The notes under the pieces: model-generated | What the model saw: the letters and a program-made list of their open reading frames with translations, nothing else | Told to the model about the DNA's origin: nothing | Databases searched by the model: none | NCBI GenBank assembly: GCA_903813345.2 | Contig: CAIIXF020000011.1 | Coordinates: 9,398,842 to 9,462,841, forward strand | Origin: Owenia fusiformis | Lineage: Eukaryota; Annelida; Polychaeta; Sabellida; Oweniidae | Length of the DNA stretch: 64,000 bases | Reading direction: 5' to 3' | Program-made: the position numbers and the translations under genes | Shown here: one piece after another, positions 13,649-52,589 of the stretch | Numbering within the stretch: the first letter of the stretch is position 1 | Layout of the letters: the number at the start of each line of letters is the position of its first letter

Positions 13649-15259
13649 CATGAAAGAAGTTCATAGTCTGGTAATATTAAATCCATTTATTATTAGTGTT
13701 CATTGTCACAGACTTTATTACAATTTTTTGTTTTAGACGTTTCTAAAATGGACTATTAAAAAGAGACAGGAACGTTTTGAACGTGAAGCAGATACAAATA
13801 AGGACAAGACAGAAATAAGAAAGGTAGTAACCATACCCTATGTGAAAAATATATCAGAGCAAATTAGAAGAATAATGAAAAAAAAGATATCAAAGTAGCT
13901 TTTAAACCTATGCAAACACTTCGAAATGTTCTCGTTCATTCTAAAGATAAGGTCAAACAGAATCGCAAAGCGAACGTGGTATATCAAGTTCCATGCAACA
14001 ATTGTAACTAGATTACGGCAACTCCACGGAGTAGCAAATCCCAACGAACAAAATATCAATTACCGAATTCCAATCAATTATACTCATTACTTTGGTTAAA
14101 ATTGAAAAATTTAGATTTTAGAATTGCGAATTCCTGCAAATCAGCCATTTTGAATTTTCTGAGGTACAAATCTGAAAAATAATACCATAATTGTGATCTA
14201 CTCCAAAATTCCTTCAATTTGAGTATAATATAGCCATACTCTGAAGGGATCGAAAAATTATTGCGAAATCGTACATTAGACGGCCTTTTTGAATTTTACG
14301 AGGCTCGAATCAGAAAAGGATACAATATTTGCAATCTACTTTTCATTGCCTTTCATTTGAGTATAATAAAGCTATACTTCAGAAAGATCTAAAAATTAGC
14401 GAAAATTTCTGTTTTCCTGGCCCCCCATACACGGCCCCTGGGGGTCAGGATGAAAAACACAGAATATATGTGAAATAGATAGATGTTGCGAATATACTAC
14501 CAAAATTTCAAACAATGATATTAATTACTTTGGTTTAGAATGAAAAATTTAGGATTTTTGCGAAAAAGTCCCGTCATTTTTAAAGCGGCGGCCATCTTGA
14601 AAAAAAATCTTGAAGAAAATCCGTCCAGTAGTATTTGAGTTATCTTCCGGACAGACGGACGGACTGACTGACTGATGGACTGACGGACTGACGGACAGAC
14701 GGAAAGACGGACGGAGGGCTTCACTATATCCCTACCGAACTTCGTTCGTTGGGATAATAAAAGTTACATAGGAGAAACAAGTAGACCTCTTGGCACTCGC
14801 ATCAAGGAACACAAAACAGAAGCAGATAAGAAAAAGAGTCACTACACTAGAAACAATAAAAAAGATTCTTTTAACAGCTTTAATAAATCAGCGATTGCAG
14901 ATCATATTCTCCAAGAAAACCACAAAATTGATTGGAACAATTATAAAATAGTTAGCACAGAAAGGAACAGAATCAATAGGTTGATAAGAGAAGCCATTCA
15001 CATTAGAAAACATAAAAACTTCAATAGAGACATGAGCAACTTCAATCTAGATCGCTTGTGGGATGAAGTTATATTGCCATAGAAATTAATTATTTTTTGA
15101 CATTGTTAAGTTTTAATGACGTAATAGTAGATTTACCTGTATTCATTTCAACTGTTTTCAATTTAAATTTAGTGATCATGGGTGCAGTTTGCATTCGAAA
15201 CGTCTAAAACAAAAAATTGTAATAAAGTCTGTGACAATGAACACTAATAAATGGATTTA
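13649..15259 (+). mobile_element. Penelope-like element, C-terminal part with GIY-YIG domain, interrupted
   Basis: From 13741 the plus strand reads KRQERFEREADTNKDKTEIR, then KVVTIPYVKNISEQIRRI and, after a one-base frame change, FKPMQTLRNVLVHSKDKVKQ and ANVVYQVPCNNCN. After an H4 insertion (14009-14758) it resumes SYIGETSRPLGTRIKEHK and ends at a stop after LDRLWDEVILP (15079-15081). The VYQVPC-x-x-C...SYIGET-R-LGTR-KEH pattern is the GIY-YIG endonuclease typical of Penelope-like elements. Inverted repeats of about 63 bp flank the unit (13678-13743 and 15197-15259). ACCTTTTTGACC on both sides is a likely target duplication. The reverse transcriptase part is missing, so it is 5'-truncated and dead. 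Confidence 0.82.
14009..14758 (+). mobile_element. H4 element, copy d, inside the Penelope-like element
   Basis: It starts TAGATTACGGCAACTCCACG, then GAGTAGCAAATCCCAACGAA, and ends TACCGAACTTCGTTCGTTGG, then GATAAT. Because it interrupts a reading frame, its ends are exact to within a base or two: removing 750 bp restores CNNCNKSYIGET across the site. The site is AAC/AAAAG with no evident duplication. The interior repeats an AT-rich unit (AATACCATAATTGTGATCTA) and has (GACGGACT)n before the hairpin. Confidence 0.82.
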
Positions 15260-15730: not shown

Positions 15731-15855
15731 AATTCAATTCTTTAATTGTAGAAAATTACTGATGACTTTGAACGTTAGAAGTGTTCTCTCAAAAGCCTAT
15801 GAAGATAATGAACATTGCATGATGTTTCTAATCTATTCATAAATTAACTCTTTAC

Positions 15856-16229
15856 CTTCTCCAGATATGTTTGATGTTTTCCACTCAGCCATCAGTTGAG
15901 AAAATGTCTCACTTTGGAAAAGTTTTCCAAATGTCTGTTTGACAAATTCTTGTAACATTTCGAGAATTGCGAGCTGGGTCTCATTTTTACTTTTTAATGT
16001 TCCCTCTGATTCTTTTTCATTTCTCAAGGTTGACATCACATCTTTGCCGAACCGTTCATGCATGATTTGTGAAAGCCAAGTTAGTCTCAGCTGCCAGTCA
16101 TTGCTAGAAGCGCCATCTATGAACAATTCTATGGCATATTGGAAATATGGCAACAAAGACGCTAGAGCATTGTGGGACAGTTTACACGATTCGTCTTCTA
16201 CTTCATGGTACGTCAACTTCAGTGCTGAG
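15856..16229 (-). CDS. MDN1: midasin exon 7 of 9
   Basis: It encodes SALKLTYHEVEDESCKLSHN, ALASLLPYFQYAIELFIDGA, SSNDWQLRLTWLSQIMHERF, and on to AEWKTSNISGE. The acceptor is CTTTTTAG/CTCAG and the donor GAAG/GTAAAG. It enters in phase 2 (AG+C = Ser) and exits in phase 1. It is a mostly helical spacer with an acidic, Lys/Glu-rich middle (RNEKESEGTLKSKNE). An 11.8-kb repeat-filled intron follows. Confidence 0.9.
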
Positions 16230-16777
16230 CTAAAAAGTGAATCATATAATGTCTATAATTATTCTGAATTATTAACATACTTTTGAAGTGCAAGAGAACT
16301 TGAAAAGAAGTTGTGAAATTATTCATCAAGAATACAGAGTCAATTCATAAACAACTTGTGATACATGAAGAAAGTAGATTATTGTTAAAATCAAATCTAA
16401 AATAGCTAGGCACATGACATGAAAACAAAACCCCAAGTAGGCAGTAAATATAAAGAATAGACAGGCAGCTTCTCTTTATCCCTGAATTGGAGGGATAGGG
16501 CAAAGGGGTCTACACCATTTCGACATAAGGGGTAACTTCAATACATTGTTGCTTATTAGCTCATATTTCTGATCTAGGGGGAAGCCATGTTTTTCTTCTC
16601 GAATGGATTGAGATCTTACAAAATCAAACATGGCAGAAAACAGAAATTCTAATTTCTTAGCCGATTTCTGATGTCAACATTACCCACCCATTGATGTTAC
16701 ATCCCTTTGCCCTAATTAACTTGTGATAAATTTCTCAAACAAAACATTGAGCCCAGTGCTTGAATCATTGAACAAAC

Positions 16778-17001: not shown

Positions 17002-17224
17002 CTTGAAAAGAGAGAAAAAATGAAATTAATCACAGAGAAGAATGTTATGATGGTCATGCATTAAACTATGAATTTGAAATGTCACAATATAATATTTTCA
17101 ACCTTTTCAGTTAGAGAGTATGGTGATTAGTTTCATAATCTTATAATAACATGCTTCAACTTGTATTCATATATTCTTGACATATACAAGCTCCTCTCTT
17201 AAAGCAGCAGAACAGTTATATTAC

Positions 17225-17582
17225 CTGTTTGCTGGCAAAATTCTTTTGTGTTTTCACATAAACATCTAGACATGAATTCAAAATGGCTGATTTGGCATGG
17301 CACCCTCTTTGCAACTGTTGGCTCACAAGATGTGCACAGTTCATCAGATCCAGCACTGTTAATTTTTCTGGGCCATTTCTGTTTTGTTTCATCACATCAT
17401 GAATTGACATCAAAGTCTCACAAGGCTCTTTACCCACAATTCCCATGCTGTGGAGCATTGTCATGACATCATGGTTGCTATAGCTTCCACCTTCCTCCTC
17501 ACCAAGGAGATAGATCTCGATACCTCTGTTACGCATTGCACGAGATATTTCACCATTTTTCGGGTCCATTGCTAGGAAGAGC
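17225..17582 (-). CDS. MDN1: midasin exon 5 of 9: sensor 1 and arginine finger
   Basis: The 358-nt exon starts LFLAMDPKNGEISRAMRNRG, then IEIYLLGEEEGG, and ends NFASKQ. LFLAMDP is the sensor-1 strand and ISRAMRNRG the arginine-finger segment of the AAA module. The C-terminal two thirds (HDVMTMLHSMGIVGKEPCET, then LTVLDLMNCAHLVSQQLQRG) form the helical lid and the link to the next module. The acceptor is AAATTTTTTTCAG/G and the donor AACAG/GTAATA. It exits in phase 0. This is the clearest single piece of evidence for midasin in the window. Confidence 0.95.
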
Positions 17583-17624
17583 CTGAAATTTTTTTAAATC
17601 ATTTTATTTTATTATTTGCTACTG

Positions 17625-19080: not shown

Positions 19081-19459
19081 ATCATAAAATCAAAGTGTCA
19101 CAGGCCTATTATCTTACATAATTATACAATATCACAAAACAAGTCATCAAAATATCATACAGTGAGTGGATCAGTATACAGTCACTGTATTATTTTAGTT
19201 ATTCTTTTATAATATTTTTAGTTCGTGAAGGTCGTCAAGACCTCCACTGCTAACAGGAAAAAGATTGATTTTTTCATGCTGGGGGGATTCCACCTTTTTA
19301 AATAGACCTCATACCTTTTAAGCGTATCAGTTAAAAAATCACAGAAGACCTAACTGATTTTACCATATTGTGCACCTATTCATTTAATGATTTATTTGCA
19401 AACATTCTCATGAAAAAGTAAATCTTGCATACAATGTATTTGTTGAATTTTCTACTTAC

Positions 19460-19619
19460 CTACAAAAGTTGACATTGTCTATCAACAGCCAATCACCATC
19501 TCTCAAAGCATTCACAAGAAGGCTGTCTACCCATTCGAACTGCCCCCCTGTTTTAGAACCACCATTTCTCTCAAACATTCTTCTGATCTTCTTCAATTCA
19601 TTTTGTAGTACTGCAGTTT
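19460..19619 (-). CDS. MDN1: midasin exon 3 of 9: Walker B region
   Basis: The exon encodes TAVLQNELKKIRRMFERNGG, then SKTGGQFEWVDSLLVNAL, then RDGDWLLIDNVNFC. The hydrophobic stretch followed by DN (WLLIDN) is the Walker B-like strand of a midasin AAA module. The acceptor is GTATACTTCAG and the donor TGTAG/GTAAGT. It enters in phase 1 (G+AA = Glu) and exits in phase 2 (AG+T = Ser). The acceptor was chosen by phase agreement with 27342-27461; an open frame continues upstream to about 19674 but there runs into intron-like sequence. Confidence 0.93.
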
Positions 19620-19849
19620 CTGAAGTATACAAACCAAACGCATCAAAATAATGTATAGAGGGGGGGAGGGTCATGGTTGTTAGTTATCTGCTGTCTCTGT
19701 CCATTATTGTGGCACAGCTATTGCCACATGAATAGAATGATCATATCAAATATTCTCTCTATATTGTATTGTATTTTGTTCACCACCAATGAAGGTGAGC
19801 AATACCACTTGGGTATATATACAGTTGTAATTAACGTATGCAATCATGG

Positions 19850-20585: not shown

Positions 20586-20682
20586 ATGACTGTTATTATG
20601 ATGATTGACAAAATGTTGATTATTTTGTTGCTAATGCCAAACTTCAGCATTGCAGCACCAAATATGGCAAAGAGGGCTGCTG
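20586..20682 (+). CDS. GPC-MDC repeat protein, exon 1: signal peptide
   Basis: It encodes the N-terminus MTVIMMIDKMLIILLLMPNF, then SIAAPNMAKRAAG. A hydrophobic core (MLIILLLM) followed by small residues (SIAA) looks like a signal peptide; the KR just after could be a processing site. The donor is GCTG/GTAAGA and it leaves in phase 1. It lies inside an MDN1 intron on the opposite strand. No TATA box or first non-coding exon could be assigned. The start is the first Met of the open frame; a later Met (residue 5 or 6) is possible. Confidence 0.75.
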
Positions 20683-21216
20683 GTAAGATATATTTTAATA
20701 ATATCTAATAAGAATAATTAACACAGAGAGATGGATTCTAATTTTATCAACTGAGAGTATTCTAATCTTATCTTCTCAGATACTCCAAGTAGCACGTTAT
20801 CAGATTTTTATCACTTTTTTGTTTCAATTTCTAGCTTATCACGATTCACGTTTTGGTAATCGAGAATCATGGTAAAATGCATAATTAAATGACTACAAAC
20901 ACTTCCAAATTCGTTCTAAAAAATCAAAATATTTTCACTTAATTACCTTACTTACAGATTTTGATGGATTTTAAAATAATCAGAGTCAAGATTTGTACTA
21001 GTGTTCACTTGGAGTGTCTGTCTTCAAATCTTGTATAAAGAGATGGATTCTACATAATTTTGGAATCTTGTTGAATGATTGTCTCACTTTTGATGACATT
21101 AGGATTTTTGCATATCTAACCAAAAAGGACTTAAGTTTTCTTATATGTGATAACATATTATGATATCTCAAGGGAATCTTAATGCATCATTTTTGAAACT
21201 GAACTGGTATTTGTAG

Positions 21217-21345
21217 GCCCCTGTATTGGAATGGACTGCCTACATGGGGTCCTCATGCACAATGATGAGGGTGTTGGTGACAACCATAAACATGAGGATG
21301 CAGAGAAACTTAGAGAGGAACTTGAGGAGAACAAGAAAGTTAAAG
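21217..21345 (+). CDS. GPC-MDC repeat protein, exon 2: repeat 1
   Basis: The 129-nt exon encodes one complete module, GPCIGMDCLHGVLMHNDEGV, then GDNHKHEDAEKLREELEENK and KVK. The acceptor is TATTTGTAG and the donor AAAG/GTTGGT. Both ends are phase 1, so the exon is symmetric and could be duplicated or skipped without changing frame. The module has two Cys (C-x4-C), Met and His residues, and an acidic/basic tail predicted to be helical. The next exon begins with the same motif, which strongly supports the splice. Confidence 0.82.
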
Positions 21346-21654
21346 GTTGGTTACATAGTAATTTCACAGCAAATCATAAGTAACATAAGGCTAAGAACAT
21401 TGCCTATGCTATACCTTGTATCAATATCTTGCATATGCATGGCCATTTGCAAGACAATCATAAGTAACATAACAGCATGAATTATAGCAATACTACGTTC
21501 GGGATGTTAAATTGAAAATATTTGAGTTTATTGGGTTTAGCATTTGTGTCATCATTTATCGCACAGCTCTATATGTCCATAAGTGTGATATGCTTACATA
21601 TAAACAACGATTTATAAGAATATCTCACTCATGGATGTACTGTATAGAGCTGCG

Positions 21655-23209
21655 CAATAAACAGAGAGGATAAGATGCATGGGCAACCTAAACGTGAACC
21701 TGTATTTATGCGTATACATATAGGTTATTCTAAATGTTCCTTTTGAGTAATAAGCGATTTATTCTCTGTTGACGAAACGTAAACAACAAAATGTACCCAA
21801 AAGTAATTCAACAGCAAAGATAAACCAATCAATATTTTCAGATATTTCTTGCTTGGCCATTTAGGCAAAACATAAAATTTTACTCCCAAATACTAAATGT
21901 TTAGTTCAATCATGCCTTTTTAATGCTTTAACCCTTTTTTATACCATGTTTTAAAATAAACCTCCTCATATTTTGATGACAGCCTACAGCCTTACTGCTA
22001 CATTGTCGATCACATTTCATAATATTTTTAGTGAAATGTTTAGAATTTCTTTTCAGATGTTGGCCTTAAGTTGTTCTAGGTCTCTTGGCTTGAGATTAGC
22101 ATAATATGGTTATTCAAGCTTTGAATAAGTTACCCCAGAGAAACGGTCTGGGGTGTCAAATCTTATGAATAGGGAGGCTCTCGCAATGTCTTTATTCAGA
22201 GAGATCAGACGTAGAAGAAACTGCTTTCATGGGAATTCTTGTATGACCCTTACTGTACGTGGAGGGGCCCAATCTTTTTGACACTACAGTGTTCTCATTT
22301 GAATATCAATCAGTCTCCATAACTCTGGAAGGTGGAACTCTGTTATCAACTGTTATGGGATTGTTCTTTCGTCTTCATCATCAAACTTCTCTTTCTGGGC
22401 TATTTGAAGGAGCATTTTTAAACCAAATTTTTAAGCCATCTCAAGCCAACAAAAGACCTAGAACAATGTAAGGCCAACATCCAAAGGGAAATTGAAAACA
22501 TTTCACCAGAAACATTTTCAAATGTGATGAACAATGTAGCATGAGGATGTAGGCTGTCATTGAAGTATGAAATAAAAAGTAAAGGGTTAAACCACCAAAA
22601 AGCCAAGACTGAATGAACTAAAAACTGTATTGGGGATAAAAATGTTTGGAAATATTGATTTAGCTGTGCTGTTGATATACTTTTGGGTACATTTTTTGAG
22701 ACACCCTGTATTTTAAGATGGCAATCATCACTCATAATTGATCTTATGAAATAAATGCTATTTTCCCGGGGCTAGTTTACCCACAAGATAATTATTTTGA
22801 GCCAACTAAATGCATACACAACTATTCGACAGATATGCTACTTTCAAATTAAGAACATAAATAAACATAGTTTTGCTTTTTTAGTCATTTATTCATGGAA
22901 CAAAACTCATGTTACTGCCAACACAAAAAGCAGAGTTTAGCGTTTCAATGGCCGTATAAAATGATTGAAATCGTGAAATAAGTACTAAAAAGTTATGTAA
23001 TCTGAACCTCACTCACAATCTCTCGAGTTACAGGTTCAACGCAAGACCTAACTCCAACTGACCCTATTGAATTTACATTGAATCTACACGTCGAAGGGAT
23101 TATAAAACAAGTCAAACTTGACAAGTTTACATAATTTGTTGCGCACAACGCTGTTCACGTTCAGGTTTTTGTTGTCCAAAAGGTGAAATCTTATCCTCTC
23201 TATTGTTGA
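21655..23209. mobile_element. inverted-repeat DNA element, 1.55 kb, with a nested mariner-like element
   Basis: AGAGAGGATAAGAT (21663-21676) is inverted at 23188-23201, and ACCTAAACGTGAAC (21687-21700) matches the inverse of GTTCACGTTCAGGT (23153-23166), so both terminal and subterminal sequence pair. It lies in intron 2 of the nested gene. No transposase is visible. Confidence 0.5.
21770..22708. mobile_element. mariner-like non-autonomous element
   Basis: The right end ACATTTTTTGAGACACCCTG, then TA (22689-22710) is a classic mariner terminus at a TA site. Its inner part, GCTGTTGATATACTTTTGGG (22668), is the inverse of CCCAAAAGTAATTCAACAGC (21796-21815). The left outermost bases are degraded. 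The interior has no intact transposase. Confidence 0.6.
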
Positions 23210-23259
23210 CGTAATCAAACGCTTCATAAGTTATACATTATATGGGATTCTAATATCAT

Positions 23260-23860
23260 ATGTGATGTCACAATAGCTAAAACAATTGATTTACTACTGG
23301 TCTATATTGGAGTATGTATGACTGCTAAAATTCATAAATACAAATAGTTGTGTTTCTTGTCTGTTTATCATATTAGAATCGTAACAAAGACCTCGATTTT
23401 ATGATTTTATGTCAAATATATGACCTCAAATTTTATTCTGGCCTTTGCCTTTGTGTAGCGATTTCGGTCTTTTAACAATGAACAGAGTAAAAATTTAGGT
23501 CATATATCACGCCATAAATCATAAAATCTCGGTCTTTATTCCTTAAACCTAATATGATACGTGATGTCACAATAGCTAGAACAATTGATATACTGGTCTA
23601 TATTGGAGTTTGTATGACCGCTAAAATTCATATATGTAAATAGTTGTGTAAAGTCTGTTTATTATCATATTAGAATCGTAACAAAGACCTCGATTTTATG
23701 ATTTATGTCAAGTACAGTATATGACCTCAAATTTTATTCTGGCCATTGCAAAAGACCTCAAGCGCTACAAACGGTCTATTAAAAATGAACAGAATAAATT
23801 TTTTGGTCATACATTACGCCATAAATCATAAAATCTCGGTCTTTATTCCTTAAATAACTA
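23260..23860. repeat. tandem pair of a foldback element, period about 303 bp
   Basis: GTGATGTCACAATAGCTA recurs at about 23262 and 23563. Inside each copy, ACAAAGACCTCGATTTTATG pairs with CATAAAATCTCGGTCTTTAT about 140 bp later, and TATGACCT pairs with AGGTCATA, so each copy can fold back. Two copies with flanks were duplicated in tandem. Confidence 0.65.
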
Positions 23861-23929
23861 GACTTTGGAAATTGAACGAAGTTCAATTTCAGACTCCAGA
23901 TTTAGACCAATTTAGCCGAGTCATCCAGA

Positions 23930-24390
23930 ATAAGCTGGGTCATCCAGAAAAAGATGGATGAATAAAATAGGAAGGTAGGATAGGATGGAATAGGAAGGAA
24001 CGATAGGATAGAATAAGAAAGAAGGATAGGATAGAACAGAATAGGAAGAAAGGATATGATAGGAGTAGAGGTCGCAACGGTACTGAAAACCAGTACCGGT
24101 AACCGTCACGCTAATAACCATACCGTTACCGAAATACCGGTAAAATATGTAAGATAAAATGCCAATGCGCTGTCGGCCCCACCTTGTTCCTAACTCTCTC
24201 CATAGTTTCTCAAGTCTATATGCATACATGGTGCAAGACCGATTTGAACCCATACTGATGAACTTCACGAAATAGTATGTAACTATCTTACGAATCAAGA
24301 TGTATTTTTTAGGAGAGGATAGGAAGGAAAAGATACGAATGAAGGATAGATAGGAAGGATAGGATAGGATAAGATCAGATAGGAAGGATG
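23930..24390 (+). repeat. purine-rich GGATAGGAA low-complexity sequence
   Basis: Runs of GGAAGG, GATAGGATAG and GAATAGGAAG occupy 23950-24065 and 24310-24390. Between them is a segment with repeated ACCGGTA and CCGTTACC words. Confidence 0.7.
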
Positions 24391-24469
24391 GATAAATTTT
24401 TCAATATTTTCGACTTCTCTACTCTTGACTTTCTATCAGGATACCATCAGATCGATTTTCCGAAATTTC

Positions 24470-24765
24470 AAAACGCCATAACTTCCGGACCGGAAGTCGG
24501 ATCGAAATTTGATTTAAAGATTTGGATTCCTGACAAAATTCTACCCTTAATTCATAACTCATACGTTACATTTGGTGAATTTCTATTTTGACCTACTTTT
24601 CGGACACGCCATAACTTCGGAACCGGAAGTCGGATCGAAATTTGGTTTGCAGATTCGGATTCCTGAGAAAATTCTACCCTTAATTCATAACTCAAACGTT
24701 AAATTTGGAGAACTTTTTATTTTGACCTACTTTTCGGACACCATATCTCAAAAGTGGGTCAAAAT
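24470..24765 (+). repeat. diverged tandem repeat, period 133 bp
   Basis: CGGAAGTCGGATCGAAATTT starts at 24491 and 24624, and TTTTGACCTACTTTTCGGAC ends each unit. A third, more distant copy (GAACCGGAAGTCGGATA) lies near 25277. Confidence 0.65.
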
Positions 24766-24879
24766 ACTTTCTGATGGCAAAAGGCTAACACTATTAGCAC
24801 ACTCTTGGCTACAAGTATACAAAATTTCGAACAATATAATTAGAGTGTAGTGTCAGAATCGCAAAAATAGGGAAAAACT

Positions 24880-25200
24880 TTGAATTTGACCTAGATTTTG
24901 ACCTAGGCCCTGGACTGGATTTAGACCTAGACTTGACTTGGACCTGGACATGTACCTGGACTTGGATTGAATGAGAAGGAAGAATAGGATAGAATAGGAA
25001 GGAAGGATAGGAAGGAAGGATAGATAGGAAGGGAGAATCATCCAGAATAAGATCATCTAGATAGAAAGGATAGGATAGACCTAAATTTTGATCTAGGTCC
25101 TGGACTGGATTTGGACCTAGACTTGACTTGAACAAAACTGGACTTGGACCTGGACTTGACCTTGATTTGGACCTTGAAATGGACTGGACTGGTATTTTTT
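24880..25200 (+). repeat. degenerate GACCTGGACT repeats
   Basis: Short units such as TTGACCTAG, GGACCTGGACTTG and TAGACTTGACTTGGACCT alternate with GGAAGGATAG runs. Apparent frames with SRSKSSPG-like peptides on the minus strand come from this repetition. Confidence 0.6.
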
Positions 25201-25679
25201 CAATTTTATTTCACTTTTCTTGACATTCTATGAGGGTACCATCAGATCGATTTTCCTCGAACTTTCAAAACGTCATAACTCCTGAACCGGAAGTCGGATA
25301 TCAATTCGGTTTTCAGATTCGGAATCCTGAAAATTTCCTATAAGACTATTATCCTGGACATCGGATTCGGAGAACTTTTTTTCGGACCTCGTTTTCGGAC
25401 ACTGATATCTCGAAATTGGTTCGAGATATCAAAAAACTAAATCGACCCTAGCTTTCCTACTTTTTTATGAGGAACACAATGAAAAAAACCCGGATCAAAA
25501 ATACTGAAGGACGACTGAGAAAATTGAAAAAAGTGACAAAGTACTGGATTTGACCCAGTTCCTGACCTTTGACCTAGATAAAAATTTGACCTAATTTCCG
25601 AGAAACTAGATACTGGACCTGAATTAACCATATACAGGTCTTGACTCAATGTCTTCTAGTTAAGGAGAAAACGTTGGAA

Positions 25680-25712
25680 GAATAATAATAATAATAATAA
25701 AGAAGAAGAATA
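25680..25712 (+). repeat. AAT/AAG microsatellite
   Basis: An (AATAAT)n run turns into AAGAAGAAGAAT. It sits just before the last exon of the nested gene. Confidence 0.8.
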
Positions 25713-25862
25713 CTGGCAAAAACAATAGACTCCAGATTGACATCTGGAGTCTAATAATAAATATGCAATAAGTGAGTTGCGAAATCTCTCTATTTATTAT
25801 CAAACCACTAATACCTCATTTCATTCTATCATAATCTCTGGCCAATATTTAACACATTTCAG

Positions 25863-26707
25863 GACCATGTGAAGGAATGGATTGCATGCATGAACTGATG
25901 CATAATGACAATGAAGACCCCTTGGCCAAACACAAACCCAAATCTGGCCCAGAAGAGCAGCCCAAGCAACAGGGGCCGTGTGAAGGAATGGATTGTATGC
26001 ATCAGGTCCTGATGCATGATGAGGAGGAAAAGGGGAAAGCTCACAAACATGATGAGGACAAGAAAAAAGATGTTGCTGAAGGTGATCCTTCTAGTCAGCA
26101 TGATGGACCATGTCTTGATTGCCTCCATGATGTCATGATGCATGGTGAAGATGAGGCTGGCAAACACCACAACAATGACAATGATGCAGAAGACACAATG
26201 TCTGACACAGACCCTCAACAGAAAGGGCCTTGTATAGGCATGGACTGCATGCATGGTGTATTGATGCATAATGATGAAGAGCAAGGTAATGACCATCAGA
26301 ATGACGATGAAGAAATCCAAAAAGATGCTGATGATGATGGAAAATACCCTAGTGTTGCAGACCCACATGAAATGATTCATGGTACTCATGACATTGACAA
26401 CCAAGACTATCTCAAATGGAAACAAGAAAATGACAAGAAAACTGAACTTGAGACATTAAAAGAACTTGAAAAAGATATTCAAGGATATAGCTATCCCTTT
26501 GTGTCTGATACAGTACTCTCAGATGTGGAACTTATGAAAAAGCGCTACTTTGCCAAACAAGGTGAGGAAGAGGATGGTGAAATAGTAGAAATGAGCCAGG
26601 AACTTGACAAAGAGGCAGGCCTGCCCATACATGGCATGGACATGAGACACGATCTGGAAAATATTGGAAGCTCAGATCCAATCAAAATACACCATGATGA
26701 AAGTTAA
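25863..26707 (+). CDS. secreted Cys/His/Asp repeat protein, exon 3: repeats 2-5 and C-terminus
   Basis: This last exon encodes 281 codons and the stop. Modules start GPCEGMDCMHELMH, GPCEGMDCMHQVLMH, GPCLDCLHDVMMH and GPCIGMDCMHGVLMH, separated by 25-30 residue linkers rich in Asp, Glu, Lys and His. Module 4 has lost two residues, making C-x2-C. The tail (YLKWKQENDKKTELETLKEL and on) is a charged helix, followed by PIHGMDMRHDLENIG, which looks like a module without cysteines. The full protein is 356 residues over three exons with matching phases. The paired Cys, Met and His suggest metal binding or disulfide-linked modules in a secreted, calcium- or metal-rich setting; that is inference. I recognise no named family. 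The acceptor is ACATTTCAG. Confidence 0.88.
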
Positions 26708-27080
26708 AGGTGCAACAAAGACTTGAGACTAAAACAATTTTTGAAATATATTTCTCTCATAAGATTATGTGCAGGGTGTTGCAATGTAATGTAATGTATG
26801 GTGTATTATGTACACAGAGGTACAAAACATACGATGCATATATCATGAACAGGTTGGCTCAAAATATGTTTCAATACATGTAATGTATGGTGTATTATGT
26901 ACACATAGGTACAAAACATGTGATGCATATATCATGAAAAGGTTGGCTCAAAATATGTTTCAATACATGTGATGTATATGTTTTGGTGATTCAAAAACTA
27001 GCATTCTCTTACATACAGTTGCTCTTGTAGAATGATATTCACTTAGAATTGTGTCCAATGATCAACAGTTGTGGAATAAA
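26708..27080 (+). other. 3' UTR of the GPC-MDC gene with an 89-bp duplication
   Basis: After the stop, TAATGTATGGTGTATTATGT (26792) recurs at 26881, so a unit of 89 bp is duplicated in tandem with few changes. AATAAA at 27075-27080 is the best polyA signal and lies about 260 bp from the MDN1 exon on the other strand. Confidence 0.6.
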
Positions 27081-27240: not shown

Positions 27241-27341
27241 TGAACACCATCCCTTTGCATTATCTAATTTTCAACAATAAAAAAAAAATATATAGTCTTT
27301 GTTTAACATTCCAACTATTCATTATGTATGTGACAACTAAC

Positions 27342-27461
27342 CTTCATTTGATTTCAATTGCAACTTTCCAAAGATGATCTCAAGTGTCTCTGTGAGGTCA
27401 TTCAACAGCTTCAGCTGCTCTATCATTCGGACATCCTCCTCATCTATGCTCTTACATCTCT
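27342..27461 (-). CDS. MDN1: midasin exon 2 of 9 in window
   Basis: This 120-nt exon encodes ERCKSIDEEDVRMIEQLKLL followed by NDLTETLEIIFGKLQLKSNE. The acceptor is TCTTTGCAG and the donor GAAG/GTTAGT. Both ends are phase 1. It is a helical linker segment within the AAA module before the WVDSLL block. It is bounded by the 24.9-kb intron upstream and the 7.7-kb intron that holds the nested secreted-protein gene downstream. The nested gene's predicted polyA signal is only about 260 bp away on the opposite strand, so the two transcripts converge here. Confidence 0.92.
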
Positions 27462-27815
27462 CTGCAAAGACAAAAATAACATTTTGAAATGAATGTTGGA
27501 AATATATATATTCATCAACACACAGACAGACAGACAGACAATCAGTTAGACAGAGGGCTTTTCTACATCCACTGCGTGAAATATGGGATTCCAATTCTTG
27601 ACACGTCTAGAAACTAGTCTTTTCACGCCGGGTTTCTAGACGTGCCAATTATTTACACCTCTTGACACGCGATGAATCCAACTCTTTACACATCTATGCA
27701 CTTCTTGACACACGCCATGCAAAGCAGTGCACAGACCATGCCAAAAGTCTTGACACGCGCTGATTGGAATCTCATTACTCGCTCTTGGCACATTGATAAT
27801 TATGTGTAAGCAACT

Positions 27816-32399: not shown

Positions 32400-35300
32400 G
32401 CAAGATGTTGGCACTATTCTGACCACTGATATTATTTTTGCAACATGTATATGTGAAAGCACTATTTTGATTTTTACTATTTTTTGCAAGATGTGTATGG
32501 GAAAGCACTATTTTGACCAATACTATTGTTTTTGCAAGATGTGTATGTGAAAGCACTATTTTGACCATTACTATTGGTTTTGCAAGATGAAAGCACTATT
32601 TAGACCATTACTATTGTTTTTGCAAGATGTGTATGTGAAAGCACTATTTTGACCATTACTATTGTTTTTGCAAGATGAAAGCACTATTTAGACCATTACT
32701 ATTGTTTTGCAAGAAGTGTATGGGAAAGCACCATTTTGACCATTACTATTGTTTTTGCAAGATGTGTATGGGAAAGCACTATTTTGACCATTTCTATTGC
32801 TTTTGCAAGATGTGTATGGGAAAGCACTATTTTGACCATTACTATTGATTCTGCAAGAAGCGTATGGGTAAGCACTATTTTGACCATTACTATTGTTTTT
32901 GCAAGATGTGTATGTGAAAGCACTATTTTGACCATTACTATTGTTTTTGCAAGGAGTGTATGTGAAAGCACTATTTTGACCATTACTATTGTTTTTTCAA
33001 GATAAAAGCACTATTTAGATCATTACTGTTGTTTTGCAAGAAGTGTATGTGAAAGCACTATTTTGACCATTACTATTGTTTTTGCAAGATGAAAGCACTA
33101 TTTAGACCATTACTATTGTTTTGCAAGAAGTGTATGGGAAAGCACCATTTTGACCATTACTATTGTTTTTGCAAGATGTGTATGGGAAAGCACTATTTTG
33201 ACCATTACTATTGTTTTTGCAAGATGAAAGCACTATTTAGACCATTACTATTGTTTTGCAAGAAGTGTATGGGAAAGCACCATTTTGACCATTACTATTG
33301 TTTTTGCAAGATGTGTATGTGAAAGCACTATTTTGACCATTACTATTGTTTTTGCAAGATGTGTATGTGAAAGCACTATTTTGACCATTACTATTGTTTT
33401 TTCAAGATAAAAGCACTATTTAGATCATTACTGTTGTTTTGCAAGAAGTGTATGTAAAAGCACTATTTTGACCATTACTATTGTTTTTGCAAGATGTGTA
33501 TGTGAAAGCACTATTTGACCATTACTATTGCTTTTGCAAGAAGTGTATGGGAAAGCACTATTTTGACCATTTCTATTGCTTTTGCAAGATGTGTATGGGA
33601 AAGCACTATTTTGACCATTACTATTGATTCTGCAAGAAGCGTATGGTAAGCACTATTTTGACCATTACTATTGTTTTTGCAAGATGTGTATGTGAAAGCA
33701 CTATTTTGACCATTACTATTGTTTTTGCAAGATGTGTATGTGAAAGCACTATTTTGACCATTACTATTGTTTTTGCAAGATGTGTATGTGAAAGCACTAT
33801 TTTGACCATTACTATTGTTTTTGCAAGATGTGTATGGAAAAGCACTAATTTGACCATTACTATTGCTTTTGCAAGAAGTGTAAGTGAAAGCACTATTTTG
33901 ACCATTACTATTTCTTTTGCAAGATGTGTATGGGAAAGCACTATTTTGACCATTACTATTGCTTTTGCAAGAAGTGTATGTGAAAGCACTATTTTGACCA
34001 TCACTATTGCTTTTGCAAGAAGTGTATGTGAAAGCACTATTTTGACCATTACTATTGCTTTTGCAAGATATGGATGTGAAAGCATTATTATGACCATTAC
34101 TAATGTTTTTGCAATATGTGTATGTGAAAGCATTATTTTGACCATTACTATTGTTTTTGCAAGATATGGATGTGAAAGCATTATTTTGACCATTACTATT
34201 GTTTTTGCAAGATATGGATGTGAAAGCACTATTTTGACCATTACTATTGTTTTTGCAAGATATGGATGTGAAAGCATTATTTTGACCATTACTATTGTTT
34301 TTGCAAGATGTGTATGTGAAAGCATTATTATGACCATTACTATTGCTTTTGCAAGATGTGTATGTGAAAGCATTATTATGACCATTACTAATGTTTTTGC
34401 AAGATGTGTATGTGAAAGCATTATTTTGACCATTACTATTGTTTTTGCAAGATGTGTATGTGAAAGCATTATTATGACCATTACTAATGTTTTTGCAAGA
34501 TGTGTATGTGAAAGCATTATTTTGACCATTACTATTGTTTTGCAAGAAGTGTATGGGAAAGCACTATTTTGACCATTACTATTGTTTTTGCAAGATGTGT
34601 ATGGAAAAGCACTATTTTGACCATTACTATTGCTTTTGCAAGAAGTGTAAGTGAAAGCACTATTTTGACCATTACTATTTCTTTTGCAAGATGTGTATGT
34701 GAAAGCATTATTTTGACCATTACTATTGTTTTTGCAAGATATGGATGTGAAAGCACTATTTTGACCATTACTAATGTTTTTGCAAGATATGGATGTGAAA
34801 GCATTATTATGACCATTACTATTGTTTTTGCAAGATGTGTATGTGAAAGCACTATTTTGACCATTACTATTGTTTTTGCAAGATATGGATGTGAAAGCAT
34901 TATTATGACCATTACTATTGTTTTTGCAAGATGTGTATGTGAAAGCACTATTTTGACCATTACTATTGTTTTTGCAAGATGTGTATGGAAAAGCACTATT
35001 TTGACCATTACTATTGCTTTTGCAAGAAGTGTAAGTGAAAGCACTATTTTGACCATTACTATTGTTTTTTCAAGATAAAAGCACTATTTAGATCATTACT
35101 GTTGTTTTGCAAGAAGTGTATGTGAAAGCACTTTTTTGACCATTACTATTGTTTTTGCAAGGAGTGTATGGAAAAGCACTATTTTGACCATTACTATTGC
35201 TTTTGCAAGAAGTGTAAGTGAAAGCACTATTTTGACCATTACTATTGTTTTTTCAAGATAAAAGCACTATTTAGATCATTACTGTTGTTTTGCAAGAAGT

Positions 35301-36765
35301 GTAAGTGAAAGCACTATTTTGACTATTACTATTTCTTTTGCAAGATGTGTATGGGAAAGCACTATTTTGACCATTACTATTTCTTTTGCAAGATGTGTAT
35401 GGGAAAGCACTATTTTGACCATTACTATTGCTTTTGCAAGAAGTGTAAGTGAAAGCACTATTTTGACCATTACTATTTCTTTTGCAAGATGTGTATGGGA
35501 AAGCACTATTTTGACCATTACTATTGCTTTTGCAAGAAGTGTATGGGAAAGCACTATTTTGACCATTTCTATTGCTTTTGCTATTGCTTGTGAAAGCATT
35601 ATTTTGACCATTACTAATGTTTTTGCAAGATATGGATGTGAAAGCATTATTATGACCATTACTATTGTTTTTGCAAGATGTGTATGTGAAAGCATTATTA
35701 TGACCATTACTAATGTTTTTGCAAGATGTGTATGTGAAAGCATTATTTTGACCATTACTATTGTTTTGCAAGAAGTGTATGGGAAAGCACTATTTTGACC
35801 ATTACTATTGTTTTTGCAAGATGTGTATGGAAAAGCACTATTTTGACCATTACTATTGCTTTTGCAAGAAGTGTAAGTGAAAGCACTATTTTGACCATTA
35901 CTATTTCTTTTGCAAGATGTGTATGTGAAAGCATTATTTTGACCATTACTATTGTTTTTGCAAGATATGGATGTGAAAGCATTATTTTGACCATTACTAT
36001 TGTTTTTGCAAGATGTGTATGTGAAAGCATTATTTTGACCATTACTATTGTTTTTGCAAGATATGGATGTGAAAGCATTATTATGACCATTACTAATGTT
36101 TTTGCAAGATATGGATGTGAAAGCATTATTATGACCATTACTATTGTTTTTGCAAGATGTGTATGTGAAAGCATTATTTTGACCATTACTATTGTTTTTG
36201 CAAGATATGGATGTGAAAGCATTATTATGACCATTACTAATGTTTTTGCAAGATATGGATGTGAAAGCATTATTATGACCATTACTAATGTTTTTGCAAG
36301 ATATGGATGTGAAAGCATTATTATGACCATTACTAATGTTTTTGCAATATGTGTATGTGAAAGCATTATTTTGACCATTACTATTGTTTTTGCAAGATGT
36401 GTATGTGAAAGCACTATTTTGACCATTACTATTGCTTTTGCAAGAAGTGTAAGTGAAAGCACTATTTTGACCATTACTATTTCTTTTGCAAGATGTGTAT
36501 GGGAAAGCACTATTTTGACCATTACTATTGCTTTTGCAAGAAGTGTATGTGAAAGCACTATTTTGACCATCACTATTGCTTTTGCAAGAAGTGTATGTGA
36601 AAGCACTATTTTGACCATTACTATTGCTTTTGCAAGAAGTGTGCGTGAAAGCACTATTTTGACCATTACTATTGTTTTTGCAAGATGTGTATGTGAAAGC
36701 ACTATTTTGACCATTACTATTGCTTTTGCAAGATGTGTATGGGATAGTGCTATTTCCTGACCATT
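32400..36765 (+). repeat. minisatellite, 48-bp unit, about 90 copies
   Basis: The unit is TTTGCAAGATGTGTATGTGA, then AAGCACTATTTTGACCATTA, then CTATTGTT (48 bp). Variants have ATATGGATG or AAGTGTA in place of GTGTATG, or lack about 12 bp. A longer block containing TTTTTTCAAGATAAAAGCAC, then TATTTAGATCATTACTG recurs at about 32993, 33402, 35068 and 35247, so larger segments were duplicated. Because 48 is a multiple of three, frames up to 344 codons stay open on both strands; these encode 16-residue repeats and I do not regard them as genes. Confidence 0.95.
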
Positions 36766-39314
36766 GCTATTTATGCCAGAGGAGGTTGAGAAAGTACTAG
36801 CCTGACCATAGATTTAGCCAGTGATGTAGTATAATGAAAATGTTCACAGAACGTTGATGTCAGCTGTGTTAGTCTCAGATGTTAAGTTCTTGCAAAATAT
36901 TTCCTCATTTATTCATTTTTCATTTTTAAACATGCAGATCATCTTCAGTGATCCATAAAATTTAAATGACAAATATAAAATAGGTCTGTTGACTCTTCAA
37001 AATATAAAATATTTTCATGGAATCTAAAGGAATGAGTATTTTATGTCTGAAGGGAGCAACATAGTAAAGATGATTAGGTATTGGTCTTTTAGTCTTATTA
37101 CTGAAACGAAGCATATCTTTCCAATTATTGAAGGCAGATCAGGAGCTATTGCTCTTTTATGGAGAAAATGAGTAAAAACGAATCAGTATGAAAAAAGAAT
37201 GCAATTCTTTAAACATGTTAATATGTGCTCAATTTCTACTTTATTTAAATTATTTATTTTTAATACTTATTTCATGGAATTTTATGTTTAAAAAAACTAT
37301 CAATAGTTTGCTTCGAGAAAGAAATTAATCTTCTTAAGATGTTTTCACATGAGGCAGCCTATTAGGTCTCTTCCAATCAATCCAACACTGCATTGGTTCA
37401 ATACGCTTCTCAAAACCTAAAATAATCACGAGGAAAACCAAAGAATTGAGAAGATGAATGAAGCTACAGATATTAATATAAATACCACAAAAGGAGAAAC
37501 AATCACACATAAGAGAAAAAAATGAATATCTAAGACAGCTGGTTGATATTTTAGAAGGTTTCGTTTGCTTTAATAGCCACTTATTGGTTTGTGTAGCAGA
37601 CTTTAGCAGATTCGCAGATCTGAAACTTCTTGCTTGGATTTGGATACTATCAACACTACAGATATCAGGTGAGTTTTACTTCACAGCTGGATGCAATCTG
37701 CAAAATGGAATTGCTTTTTATGATGGTTATGTAGTCATTTAACTTACTTTTTCATATACATTAATAGCTTTAAAATGTCTGCTTCAAGAGAAGATCATAA
37801 CATTGATAATCAATGAGATAACACCACTGTAATAGTTTTTATATGAAAAATTAGCATTAGAAGGCCAATGCACATTCCCGGGTGCACACTGAGGTGATAT
37901 AAAAAAATTTCCCCAAGATTATTTCATGAGAAACATTGAATGTCAAAATATTTAGATGAATAAGAAAACTATAGTAACAACAACAATATCTTACCTTTTT
38001 AAGGTAGGATAAAAAACTTGTTTATACCATCATGTCCTTTTTGCTATAAAACCATATATTCATAAATTACAACCATATATCACTAGCAAATGTGCTTTTA
38101 TAATTTTTTCCTATTTATAAGAACTTTGACAACAAAAAATCAAAAATGATTTCAAAAGGCCATGTAGTAGATTTGCTATAAATAATAGGTGAATACATAA
38201 AAATCAAATATCATTTTGGAAAAATTTGGTATACATGAAACCATAGTTGGCATACTTATTGAAATATTTTAACTTTTTCATCACATGTATTTGTACTAAC
38301 TATTGATTGCAAAAGACAAGTCTCGGTTTGGAGAACAGTCTATTGGGCTGATAACATTATAATGAAAAATATAGAAATAACACCCAAAACAAATTATGAA
38401 TATTCAAAAGAGGATATTTAAATCTACAATATGTAAAAATATCAAAATTGTCCAAAACAGGCGTAACATGCAGTAGACTGATGAACTTGGTTCTCCAAAC
38501 ATGAAGAATATGTCAAATAATAAAGTACTAGCCATATAAAAAACATAATGTAAAAATACACCAAGTTACACTTACTTCAAAACAGGAAACCTAATTTTGA
38601 AACACTAAAATGATATAGACTCCTTTATTGTTGAAAAAGTGATTTTGACCCATTAAATGGAAATGAGCACTGATTCCCAAGAATGGAGTTTTCATTCGTC
38701 TAAAAATTGTTCATGCACAGACAGACAATTAGTAGGCTACATTAGCCTCACCAAGTGAACCAAAAATACCATCATAATATTATCCATGTCATCTCATGTC
38801 ATCTGATATTTACAATGTCATCTTATATTTTATCTAAAGAAAGTAAGAAAACAGAAAGTTGTGATGAGAATCAGAATGCTTCTAGTCTTAGACTTAAATT
38901 ATCTACTGGGAAATCATTGTGTGAGGTGAAAAAATGAAAGAAGCTCCTGAAAAGGAATCAAATGTGAACCAGTGTATCGCTAGAGTCAACACTAATAAAT
39001 GGATAAGGGATTTGGAAAAAAAAATTCTCTGCTCAATTTGAAGTGAATCAAAAATTACCTCTTTACCATTTTTTCAATTTAACATTTCAAAAACTGTAGT
39101 TGTAGGGTAGACAGAAAATGAGAAACTTTGAGAAACTGTTATTTGACCTTAAAAGTAACCTTTGACCTTGACATAAATATATTGCTTTTGTTTCAACTGC
39201 CAAATATTTTGAGCATTCCATGCATGGGAGAGCAAAATATTAAAAATGATGACATGTAGATGACATAATTCTTGACGACTGTATATGCTTGACCATTATG
39301 ATATTGCCAAGTAA

Positions 39315-45389: not shown

Positions 45390-46700
45390 ATATAATATGA
45401 ATCACCCTTATGGTAGAAATCACCCTTGGGGAGAATGCAACCTTACTTATGGTAGAAATCACCCATGAGGAGAATACCGCCTTATGATAGAAATCATCCT
45501 TGGGGAGAATGCAACCTTACTTATGGTAGAAATCACCCTTGGGGAGAATGCAACATTACTTATGGTAGAAATCACCCATGGGGAAAATGCAGCCTTATGG
45601 TAGAAAGCACTCTGGGGAGAATAGAACCTTACTTATGGTAGAAATCACCCCTGGGGAGAATACAACCTTACTTATGGTAGAAATCACCCCTGGGGAGAAT
45701 ACAACCTTACTTATGGTAGAAATCACCCTTGGGGAGAATGCAACCTTACCTATGGTAGAAATCACCTCGGGGAATGCAGCCTTATGGTAAAAATCACCCA
45801 TGGGAAGAATGTAGCCTTATGGTAGAAATCACCCTTTGGGAGAATGCAACCTTATTTATGGTAGAAATCACCCTTGGGGAGAATGCAACCTTACTTATGG
45901 TACAAATCACCAATGGGGAGAATGCAGCCGTATGATACAAATCACCCTTGGGGAGAATGCAACTTTATGGTAGAAATCACTCTTGGGGAGAATACAACCA
46001 TACTTATGGTAGAAATCACCCTTGGGGAGAATGCAATCTTAACTATGGTAGAAATCACCCTTGGGGAGAATGCAATCTTAACTATGGTAGAAATCACCCT
46101 TGGGGAGAATGCAATCTTACCTATGGTAGAAATCACCTCAGGGAATGCAGCCTTATGGTAAATATCACCCATGGGAAGAATGTAGCCTTATGGTAGAAAT
46201 CACCCTTTGGGAGAATGCAACCTTATTTATGGTAGAAATCACCCTTGGGGAGAATGCAACCTTACTTATGGTACAAATCACCAATGGGGAGAATGCAGCC
46301 GTATGATACAAATCACCCTTGGGGAGAATGCAATCTTACTTATGGTACAAATCACCCTTGAGGAGAATGCAACCTTACTTATGGTACAAATCACCCTTGG
46401 AGAGAATGCAACCTTACTTATGGTACAAATCACCCTTGGGGAGAATGCAATCTTACTTATGGTACAAATCACCCTTGAGGAGAATGCAACCTTACTTATG
46501 GTACAAATCACCCTTGGAGAGAATGCAACCTTACTTATGATACAAATCACCCTTGGGGAGAATGCAATCTTACTTATGGTACAAATCACCCTTGAGGAGA
46601 ATGCAACCTTACTTATGGTACAAATCACCCTTGAGGAGAATGCAACCTTACTTATGGTACAAATTACCCTTGGGGAGAATGCAACCTTATGATAGAAAAA
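45390..46700 (+). repeat. minisatellite, 39-bp unit, about 33 copies
   Basis: The unit is ACTTATGGTAGAAATCACCC, then TTGGGGAGAATGCAACCTT (39 bp), with shorter 32-34 bp variants and a GGTACAAATCACC subfamily from 46270 on. A block of about 360 bp (45560-45910) recurs at about 45970-46290. Because 39 is a multiple of three, frames such as LLMVQITLGENAT stay open; they are artefacts of the repeat. Confidence 0.95.
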
Positions 46701-46814
46701 ATCATACTTGGACTAAGAAACACCCTTGGTAAAAATCATCCTTAGACTGAGAAAGCACTCTTGGTAAAATCAAACTGAGAATAAAAACATCTGGCATTAC
46801 ATTGTTGCTACTCA

Positions 46815-50014: not shown

Positions 50015-52255
50015 CAAGACACACAGTGATAAATATCGCACTTTGAAGAGCAAACTGGCAACCATGCAATTTACCCAGCATGGCCAAAACCTAATCAGAC
50101 CTTGGCACTAGTCTGCTCTTGCATCTGTAAACATTTCAAATTGACAAGGTTAGCGGTTTTCCTGCAATTTTGATGACAAGAATTTATTTGTAGTCTTGAA
50201 CTTTGGGAAAATTTAGATAACATCGTTTGTGACCTAATTTGATGACCTTCGACCTTGAAAATTTCACTTTTTCAGACCCCAGTAGGTGTTTTGTAATTAA
50301 GCTGACCTAAATTTAAATCCAAAATATCAATTTAGAAAATCAACTTTTTTGACCTTTTCAAGACAAGAATGACAAGAATTTATTTGTAGTCTTGAACTTT
50401 GGGAAAATTTAGATAACATCGTTTGTGACCTAATTTGATGACCTTCGACCTTGAAAATTTCACTTTTTCAGACCTCAGTAGGTGTTTTGTAATTAAGCTG
50501 ACCTAAATTTAAATCCAAAATATCAATTTAGAAAATCAACTTTTTTGACCTTTTCATGAATGAAAGGTCAAATCTGAAATCTAAGGTCAGATTTGAACTT
50601 CTGAGAACTTGTAGATGTTTTTAAAAAAAAAAAAAAATTTGGTCAATTTGGAGCAAGTTGAAAAATTCAAAATGGCCGCCAAATTGAAAAATTCAAAATG
50701 GCCACCATGTAATTCAGCCAGCATACCCAAAACCTAATCAGATCTTGGCAATAGTCTGCTCTTGCATCTGTAAAAATTTCAAGTTGAACAGATAAGTGGT
50801 TTTCCTGGAATTTTGATGACAAGATTTGTTGAAAAATTCAAAATGGCCGCCACGTAGTTTACCCAGCATGCCCTTAACCTAATCAGATCTTGGCACTAGT
50901 CTGCTATTGCATGTGTAAAAATTTCAAGTTGAACAGGTTAGCTGTTTTCTTGGAATTTTGATGACAAGAATTGATTTGTAGTCTCAAACTTTGAGAAACT
51001 TGGATAACATCATTTGTGACCTAGTTTAATGACCTTGACCTTGAAAATTTCACTTTTTCAGACCTCAGTAGGTGTTTTGTAATTAAGCTGACCTAAATTT
51101 AAATCCAAAATATCAATTTAGAAAATCAACTTTTTTGACCTTTTCAAGGTCACTGAAGGTGAATGAAAGGTCAAATCTGAAATCTAAGGTCAGATTTGAA
51201 CTTCTGAGAATTGGTAGATGTTTTTAAAAAAAAAATATGGTCAATTTGGAGCAAGTTGAAAAATTCAAAATGGCCACCAAATTGAAAAATTCAAAATGGC
51301 CACCATGTAATTCAGCCAGCATACCCAAAACCTAATCAGATCTTGGCAATAGTCTGCTCTTGCATCTGTAAATATTTCAAGTTGAACGGATAAGTGGTTT
51401 TCCTGGAATATTTGATGACAAGATTTGTTGAAAAATTCAAAATGGCCGCCACGTAGTTTACCCAGCATGCCCTAAACCTAATCAGATCTTGGCACTAGTC
51501 TGCTATTGCATGTGTAAAAATTTCAAGTTGAACAGGTTAGCTGTTTTCTTGGAATTTTGATGACAAGAATTGATTTGTAGTCTCAAACTTTGAGAAACTT
51601 GGATAATATCATTTGTGACCTAGTTTAATGACCTTGACCTTGAAAATTCCACTTTTTCAGACCTCAGTAGGTGTTTTGTAATTAAGCTGACCTAAATTTA
51701 AATCCAAAATATCAATTTAGAAAATCAATTTTTTTTACCTTTTCAAGGTCACTGAAGGTGAATGAAAGGTCAAATCTGAAATCTAAGGTCAGATTTGAAC
51801 TTCTGAGAACTTGTAGATGTTTTTTAAAAAAAAATTTGGTCAATTTGGAGCAAGTTGAAAAATTCAAAATGGCCGCCAAATTGAAAAATTCAAAATGGCC
51901 ACCATGTAATTCAGCCAGCATACCCAAAACCTAATCAAATCTTGGCAATAGTTTGCTCTTGCATCTGTAAAAATTTCAAGTTGAACGGATAAGTGGTTTT
52001 CCTGGAATTTTGATGACAAGATTTGTTGAAAAATTCAAAATGGCCACCACGTAGTTTACCCAGCATGCCCTTAACCTAATCAGATCTTGGTACTAGTCTG
52101 CTCTTGCATCTGTAAAAATTTCAAGTTGAACAGGTAAGCAGTTATCCTGGAAATTTGATGACAAGATTTGGTTTATGTCCCGCCCGACCGCACGCCCGCC
52201 CGCCCAACAGCACAAGACGACAACAATATAGCACTTTTTCAAAGTGCGATAAAAA
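50015..52255 (+). mobile_element. H3 element, copy 1, with about 600-bp tandem core
   Basis: The 5' end CAAGACACACAGTGATAAAT carries the box ATCGCACTTTGAA (50035-50047), the exact inverted complement of TTCAAAGTGCGAT in the 3' hairpin (GCACTTT-TTC-AAAGTGC, 52231-52247). The core has tandem units of about 590-600 bp (GACCTCAGTAGGTGTTTTGT at 50471, 51061, 51660) plus a partial one at about 50275. A (CCCGC)n stretch at 52180-52206 precedes the hairpin, which ends GCGATAAAAA. Confidence 0.8.
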
Positions 52256-52316
52256 CAAGTATGTGATTCCATAAGCTTACAACGTGAGCCAAAATGGCAA
52301 TATGTGTTACACTCAC

Positions 52317-52476
52317 CTTTCCTCTGTAAGGTCTTGAAGCTGTCCAAAAGTTGCATTGTTGACTGAAGTAGAGGGTCCATATCACCCTCTGCCAACAGGA
52401 GTGCATGTCTGACAGCTTCATATACAGCGCACTCTATCTTTGCACTCACATCAGATAGGTGGCGCCTGATGTCAGC
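52317..52476 (-). CDS. MDN1: midasin exon 1 of 9 in window
   Basis: It encodes 53 codons plus one base, starting ADIRRHLSDVSAKIECAV and ending near DSFKTLQRK. The acceptor is a pyrimidine-rich tract ending TTTTCAG and the donor is AAAG/GTGAGT. It enters in phase 0 and leaves in phase 1, which fits the next exon at 27342-27461 (joined codon G+AG, giving QRKERCKS). The sequence is a charged helical segment that lies before the Walker B part of the AAA module. I find no exon above it in the remaining 11.5 kb, so the upstream intron runs past the window edge. A repeat element (H3) ends only about 60 bp from its donor. Confidence 0.9.
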
Positions 52477-52589
52477 CTGAAAATATAACAAGACAGAGCT
52501 GAAACACATAAATACTCTAAAATTCTTTTATATCGCACACATGTATCAAAATATTTAAAGGTGAAGTTTTTTTTATTAAAATCAATGTA

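Follow-up and report, generated by a model that had tools for sequence, protein, structure and literature searches.

A small gene opposite MDN1 in the annelid Owenia fusiformis encodes an acidic, probably secreted repeat protein with candidate metal-site modules

The locus described here lies in a 64,000-nucleotide (nt) stretch of the genome of the polychaete Owenia fusiformis (assembly GCA_903813345.2, contig CAIIXF020000011.1, positions 9,398,842 to 9,462,841 of the forward strand), hereafter the window, in which positions are counted from the first letter. On its plus strand stands a gene of three exons (Table 1), which join into 356 residues with phase-1 joins and without an inner stop codon. 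At each exon junction the codon is split as G/GN, and moving the end of exon 1 by one base either way destroys the reading frame. Both splice donors score 7/9 against a simple consensus and are the top-scoring ones within the scanned stretches 20600-20900 and 21230-21400, while both acceptors end in AG, the pyrimidines numbering 8 and 9 per 16 bases. At both exon borders the intron splits the first Gly codon of a repeated module. A preliminary description of this DNA, made from its letters, had proposed the in-phase joining of three exons into 356 residues, good splice sites and a module start at two exon borders, all of which are borne out. Under crude criteria for a first exon (an ATG, a hydrophobic start and a phase-1 donor of at least 7/9), eight start-donor combinations were found on the plus strand of the window (four distinct donors) and two on the minus strand (two distinct donors); exon 1 as drawn, being the nearest candidate, is likely the first exon. 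A TATAAA stands at 20376 and a possible polyadenylation signal, AATAAA, lies downstream of the gene, both being common words. Intron 2 contains several diverged local repeats between 23250 and 25400, including an 83-base unit present three times with the core CCGGAAGTCGGAT. Directly past the stop codon, in what is likely the 3' untranslated region, an 89-base unit occurs in two tandem copies that are 96% alike (26789-26966).

Table 1. Coordinates of the gene, its modules and the neighbouring host-gene frames in the window.
Feature	Positions	Strand	Remarks
Exon 1	20586-20682	+	Starts with ATG, followed by a hydrophobic, signal-like run; residues 29-30 are KR; phase-1 end
Intron 1	20683-21216	+	GT...AG, phase 1
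Exon 2	21217-21345	+	129 nt, phase 1-1; module 1 and linker; matches modules 3, 4 and 5 of the same gene
Intron 2	21346-25862	+	GT...AG, phase 1; many local repeats
Exon 3	25863-26707	+	Modules 2-5, acidic tail, stop codon; open reading frame of 284 codons
Module 1 core GPCIGMDCLHGVLMHNDE	21217-21269	+	First base of Gly codon at 20682
Module 2 core GPCEGMDCMHELMHNDNE	25863-25915	+	First base of Gly codon at 21345
Module 3 core GPCEGMDCMHQVLMHDEE	25973-26026	+	
Module 4 core GPCLDCLHDVMMHGEDEA	26105-26158	+	C-x2-C variant
Module 5 core GPCIGMDCMHGVLMHNDE	26225-26278	+	
Degenerate Cys-free module-like stretch LPIHGMDMRHDLE	26621-26659	+	Likeness by eye, aligned with the modules
Possible poly(A) signal	27075-27080	+	AATAAA at 27075; nearest AATAAA or ATTAAA downstream
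Open frame with MDN1 (host gene) exon	19459-19683	-	Midasin 6or5 match; 5jcs residues 2187-2217
Open frame with further MDN1 exon	about 17216-17593	-	Midasin 5jcs, E 3.9e-8, residues 2255-2282

The gene is real and its module is under selection; the earlier claim of a real gene is supported by the length of the open reading frame, the codon-position pattern and the splice phase. A frame as long as that of exon 3 was reached in none of 200 simulated 64-kb windows of matched first-order composition, where the longest frame on either strand had 198 codons, and a chance open frame is thereby ruled out; of 2000 random stretches matched to exon 3 in composition, none was open in the given frame. When the five module cores are compared codon by codon, the variable columns out of 18 number 13 at third, 6 at first and 3 at second positions, a bias as extreme in 103 of 100,000 label shuffles. 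Module variation thus falls mostly at third codon positions and the protein is therefore under selection. In a module alignment set by hand with three gap codons, synonymous divergence (dS) was undefined, which is read as saturated, for 4 of the 10 module pairs, and nonsynonymous divergence (dN) was below dS in five of the remaining six. Silent sites are saturated or nearly so (dS undefined or above 1.2) in 8 of 10 pairs. An antisense frame of 198 codons (25859-26455) was considered as the true gene and rejected as a shadow, because its first codon positions fall on the plus-strand third positions, the most variable among the module copies. The GC content at third positions is 0.392, against 0.394 in two open frames on the MDN1 strand, one of which has a Midasin match (17219-17593) and the other of which is called MDN1 by position only (15836-16252).

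The encoded protein begins with a signal-like hydrophobic stretch (mean Kyte-Doolittle value 2.51, residues 3-17) and shows no second hydrophobic or membrane-like stretch; the signal peptide of the preliminary description thus recurs here, and the protein has the layout of a secreted one, as judged by Kyte-Doolittle windows only and provided that exon 1 is right. Five modules start at residues 33, 76, 113, 157 and 197, with acidic linkers between them, and are followed by an acidic tail without Cys. The modules had been described as five copies of GPC-x-GMDC-x-H-x-VLMH-x-D-E; their number stands, whereas the full pattern occurs in two of the five, the pattern without the trailing x-D-E in three, and the looser GPC..DC.H..(.)MH in all five. 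V12 is missing from module 2 and G5-M6 from module 4, which therefore has C-x2-C in place of C-x4-C. Nine positions (G1, P2, C3, D7, C8, H10, M14, H15 and H24) are invariant across the five modules. All 10 Cys of the protein lie within the five 17-residue cores, which together (85 residues) hold 10 His, 13 Met and no Lys. From residue 25 on, the net charge is -51, the isoelectric point is about 4.6 and the composition includes 8.1% Gly, 7.8% His, 25.9% Asp plus Glu and 3% Cys. A single-sequence structure model of exon 3 gave a mean predicted local distance difference test score (pLDDT) of 48.6, with the modules at about 34-48 and without secondary structure and the tail forming three helices, of which two reach pLDDT about 67-75; a model of one module from the five-row alignment reached 55.8, with no secondary structure assigned. 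The protein is best read as largely unstructured. Its C terminus, HHDES (26690-26707), resembles, without being, an HDEL-type signal for retention in the endoplasmic reticulum.

Within the 498-Mb genome, the exon 3 protein matched itself and exon 2 only. The matches of exon 2 were exon 2 itself together with modules 3, 4 and 5, and that of the acidic tail, with E up to 10, was the tail alone. The module pattern with at most one mismatch was found at seven places, namely four of the five modules (with zero mismatches) and three places elsewhere (with one), two of which read through a stop; a reversed control pattern was found at none. One of the off-locus places, GHCFGMDCWH at C8:9578590, was considered as a further copy and set aside as chance, being in a 54-codon frame without a following MH and opposite an EGF-like frame. 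The frame that faces this match, on the minus strand at 908-1135 of locus L009, resembles EGF repeats by eye. No second copy was found in the genome by these best-candidate searches, which a diverged copy could escape. In Pfam no profile scored above its curated cut-off for the whole protein; for the exon 3 tail and module half the best were SpoOE-like (14.4 of 23 bits) and Arm_3 (11.1 of 28.8 bits), both below cut-off, and among the five modules taken singly one gave Arm_3 at E 0.016. NCBIfam gave no match to exon 3, the only part searched there. Against PDB sequences the protein gave one chance match (E 1.1) and the module profile none. Pattern searches yielded 32 places in viral contigs, none of them confirmed, with zero in a second search, and 21 in prokaryote contigs, again none confirmed. 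No paper was found in the literature for the module strings, and the matches listed for shorter strings were mostly 'gmdcl' in plant papers (seemingly a soybean Dicer-like gene name) and a few 'gmdcm'. The earlier statement that no family with this module is known is thus supported for these collections, in which animal proteins are covered through Pfam and PDB and animal genomes by the present one. Secreted acidic repeat proteins that are rich in His and have likely metal sites are a known kind of protein, and the present module is absent from the libraries searched.

MDN1 most likely spans the gene, which runs on the opposite strand. On the low side of the gene, the frame at 19459-19683 matches Midasin 6or5 with a whole-sequence E of 1.1e-23, a sum over six stretches of which the best single one has 0.0012, and the order of this match and that of the second frame (Table 1) along Midasin fits a minus-strand gene. 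On the high side of the gene, the frames 27340-27606 and 52096-52527 gave no Midasin match. Further along the same contig, about 53-89 kb past the window's high end (C11:9516075-9551726), seven AAA_5 matches stand on the minus strand, one of which contains an inner stop, and further AAA_5 genes occur on other contigs; the same-strand exons would fit the N-terminal part of MDN1. The nesting in an MDN1 intron proposed earlier is thus upheld on the low side by Midasin matches, whereas on the high side it is backed only by candidate MDN1 exons, the same-strand AAA_5 matches.

Elsewhere in the window, long overlapping open frames on both strands at 33511-36813 consist of a single short unit (read as CKNNSNGQNSAFTYTS and in other ways) and appear to be a large tandem DNA array rather than a gene, and 46186-46712 seems to be another tandem array, again with frames open on both strands. 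Minus-strand open frames at 61250-62834 resemble by eye the reverse transcriptase of a non-long-terminal-repeat element; the frame 61253-62080 gave nothing above cut-off in Pfam. A plus-strand open frame at 14684-15082 contains YIGETSRPLGTRIKEH, a stretch that by eye recalls GIY-YIG nucleases and that we take to belong perhaps to a Penelope-like element. In the genome at large, let-7 has a mir-10 family member some 220 bases ahead of it, and one cluster gave three mir-2 matches above the cut-off; mir-2 is known as a protostome-specific family, and these markers indicate a protostome, with one of 14 prokaryote controls also yielding a mir-2 match, below the cut-off. Three above-cut-off matches to the erythrocruorin linker family, known as annelid-specific, stand on a single contig, one of them with an inner stop, and indicate an annelid. 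Mitochondrial COX1, GFP and molluscan haemocyanin gave no match, a result that for the latter two does not demonstrate absence.

All five copies of the module keep a pair of Cys, a pair of His, a Met and an Asp while silent sites and most linker residues vary, as would be expected of a repeated metal site; the metal binding or matrix role suggested in the preliminary description is plausible from the residues. Each module would offer a candidate C/C/H/H site with a Met and an Asp close by. The spacing is C-x4-C-x-H-x3-4-H, except that module 4 has C-x2-C, and past each core another His stands in the linker. The presence of two Cys spacings (x4 and x2) and two His spacings (x4 and x3) suggests that the site is short and flexible rather than rigidly folded. 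The gene, found once in the genome and running opposite to MDN1, would accordingly encode a strongly acidic protein for secretion whose five metal-site modules are joined by flexible linkers, and each module may wrap a single metal ion of the soft or borderline class, most likely Zn(II) or Cu(I). Such a protein could act extracellularly or in secretory granules, and as a first, tentative choice among the functions considered we infer a multi-site buffer or carrier of a soft or borderline metal. It is possible, if rather doubtful, that it represents an undescribed animal, probably annelid, family of extracellular metal carriers, old enough for the full or near saturation of silent sites given above and here encoded by a single gene inside MDN1, with a new C-x4-C-x-H-x3-4-H module that carries invariant Met and Asp. 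If this is true, the module would provide a compact soft-metal-binding peptide unit of the animal secretory pathway, about 18-24 residues long and directly synthesizable and testable, and the locus would stand as an orphan gene in which constraint is demonstrable from one genome alone, its internal copies serving as their own comparison.

Several observations weigh against a buffer or carrier. The Cys pair of the module could be a disulphide outside the cell, leaving only His, Met and Asp for a metal, and the structure models are too poor (mean pLDDT 48.6 and 55.8) to place ligands; that the modules were modelled without secondary structure is as expected for metal-dependent folding and equally for a poor model. 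In the comparison of copies, the pair of modules 2 and 4 is an exception (dN 0.33, above dS 0.15), and each estimate is drawn from only 15-18 codons. In addition, no relative of known function was found in the collections searched.

Among the other explanations, the strongest, though an unlikely one, is that of a matrix protein of a hard or sticky part of the worm (jaw, chaeta, tube or cement), in which the module would cross-link by a disulphide or metal bridge and the acidic linkers would bind calcium or zinc. Repeats with acidic linkers suit a matrix protein, and annelid jaws offer precedents in Nai11527 and Nvjp-1, which the available text of PMC13120676 presents as secreted His-rich zinc-binding proteins, Nai11527 having a signal peptide, 29% Gly and 16% His. 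This jaw-type composition is not that of the present protein, with its 8.1% Gly, 7.8% His and 25.9% Asp plus Glu; moreover, the word 'cysteine' is absent from the main text of that article, and several Nvjp-1-like transcripts are described in the available text against one copy here.

Only a small chance is given to an immune effector that would be secreted to deprive microbes of metal or to act as an anionic antimicrobial. The precedent would be theromyzin of the leech, which the available text of PMC10748772 describes as an anionic secreted effector with a three-helix model, present in coelomic fluid and gut epithelium, and the tail of the present protein is likewise modelled with three helices, two of which have the better scores given above. 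Theromyzin is, however, a linear polypeptide of 86 residues in the same text, and it is likened to the present protein by description, not by sequence.

Still less chance is left to a precursor from whose acidic spacers several small cyclic (C-x4-C) signalling peptides would be excised. The signal-like start and the short Cys-pair units in tandem recall such precursors, and a dibasic pair stands two residues ahead of module 1 (KR) and of module 2 (KK), but the nearest pair ahead of modules 3, 4 and 5 is 39, 12 and 52 residues away, the nearest past cores 1 to 5 is 21, 49, 11, 94 and 52 residues away, and none is preceded by Gly, so that an amidation signal of that kind is missing. Dibasic sites within 10 residues thus occur before two of the five cores and after none, unlike in a multi-copy precursor, and a multi-copy neuropeptide precursor was rejected as the leading interpretation since most modules are without cleavage sites.

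Least probable is that exons 2 and 3 are real but follow a first exon other than the one drawn, in which case the protein start may differ: a rival hydrophobic start at 19728 has phase-1 donors at 19794 (8/9, above the 7/9 of exon 1) and 19911 (7/9), whereas the exon at 20586 lies nearest among the candidates, just six distinct such donors exist across both strands of the 64 kb, and the candidates at 19728 and 20586 both encode a signal-like start, which leaves secretion still likely.

For the putative metal buffer or carrier, several known systems invite comparison. C2H2-type zinc sites have closely spaced Cys and His, two of each, as every module does; the present protein differs from them in its C-x4-C-x-H-x3-4-H spacing, for which the whole protein has no Pfam profile above cut-off, and in its signal-like start, and searches of parts of the protein against Pfam gave no zinc-finger family even at E 10. 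Metallothioneins provide small soft-metal sites and have no fixed fold without metal, a state that the modules may share, whereas the present protein has only 3% Cys, carries a signal-like start and is rich in His and Met. Theromyzin is similar in being an annelid, anionic protein of coelomic fluid with a helical model, and differs in being linear and of 86 residues, with no tandem Cys modules reported in the available text of PMC10748772. Nvjp-1 and Nai11527 are likewise annelid, His-rich and thought to bind zinc, Nai11527 with a signal peptide (available text of PMC13120676); set apart by composition and not by sequence alignment, they are rich in Gly and His, whereas the protein encoded opposite MDN1 is acidic, has its Cys in pairs and carries a conserved unit of 18 residues.

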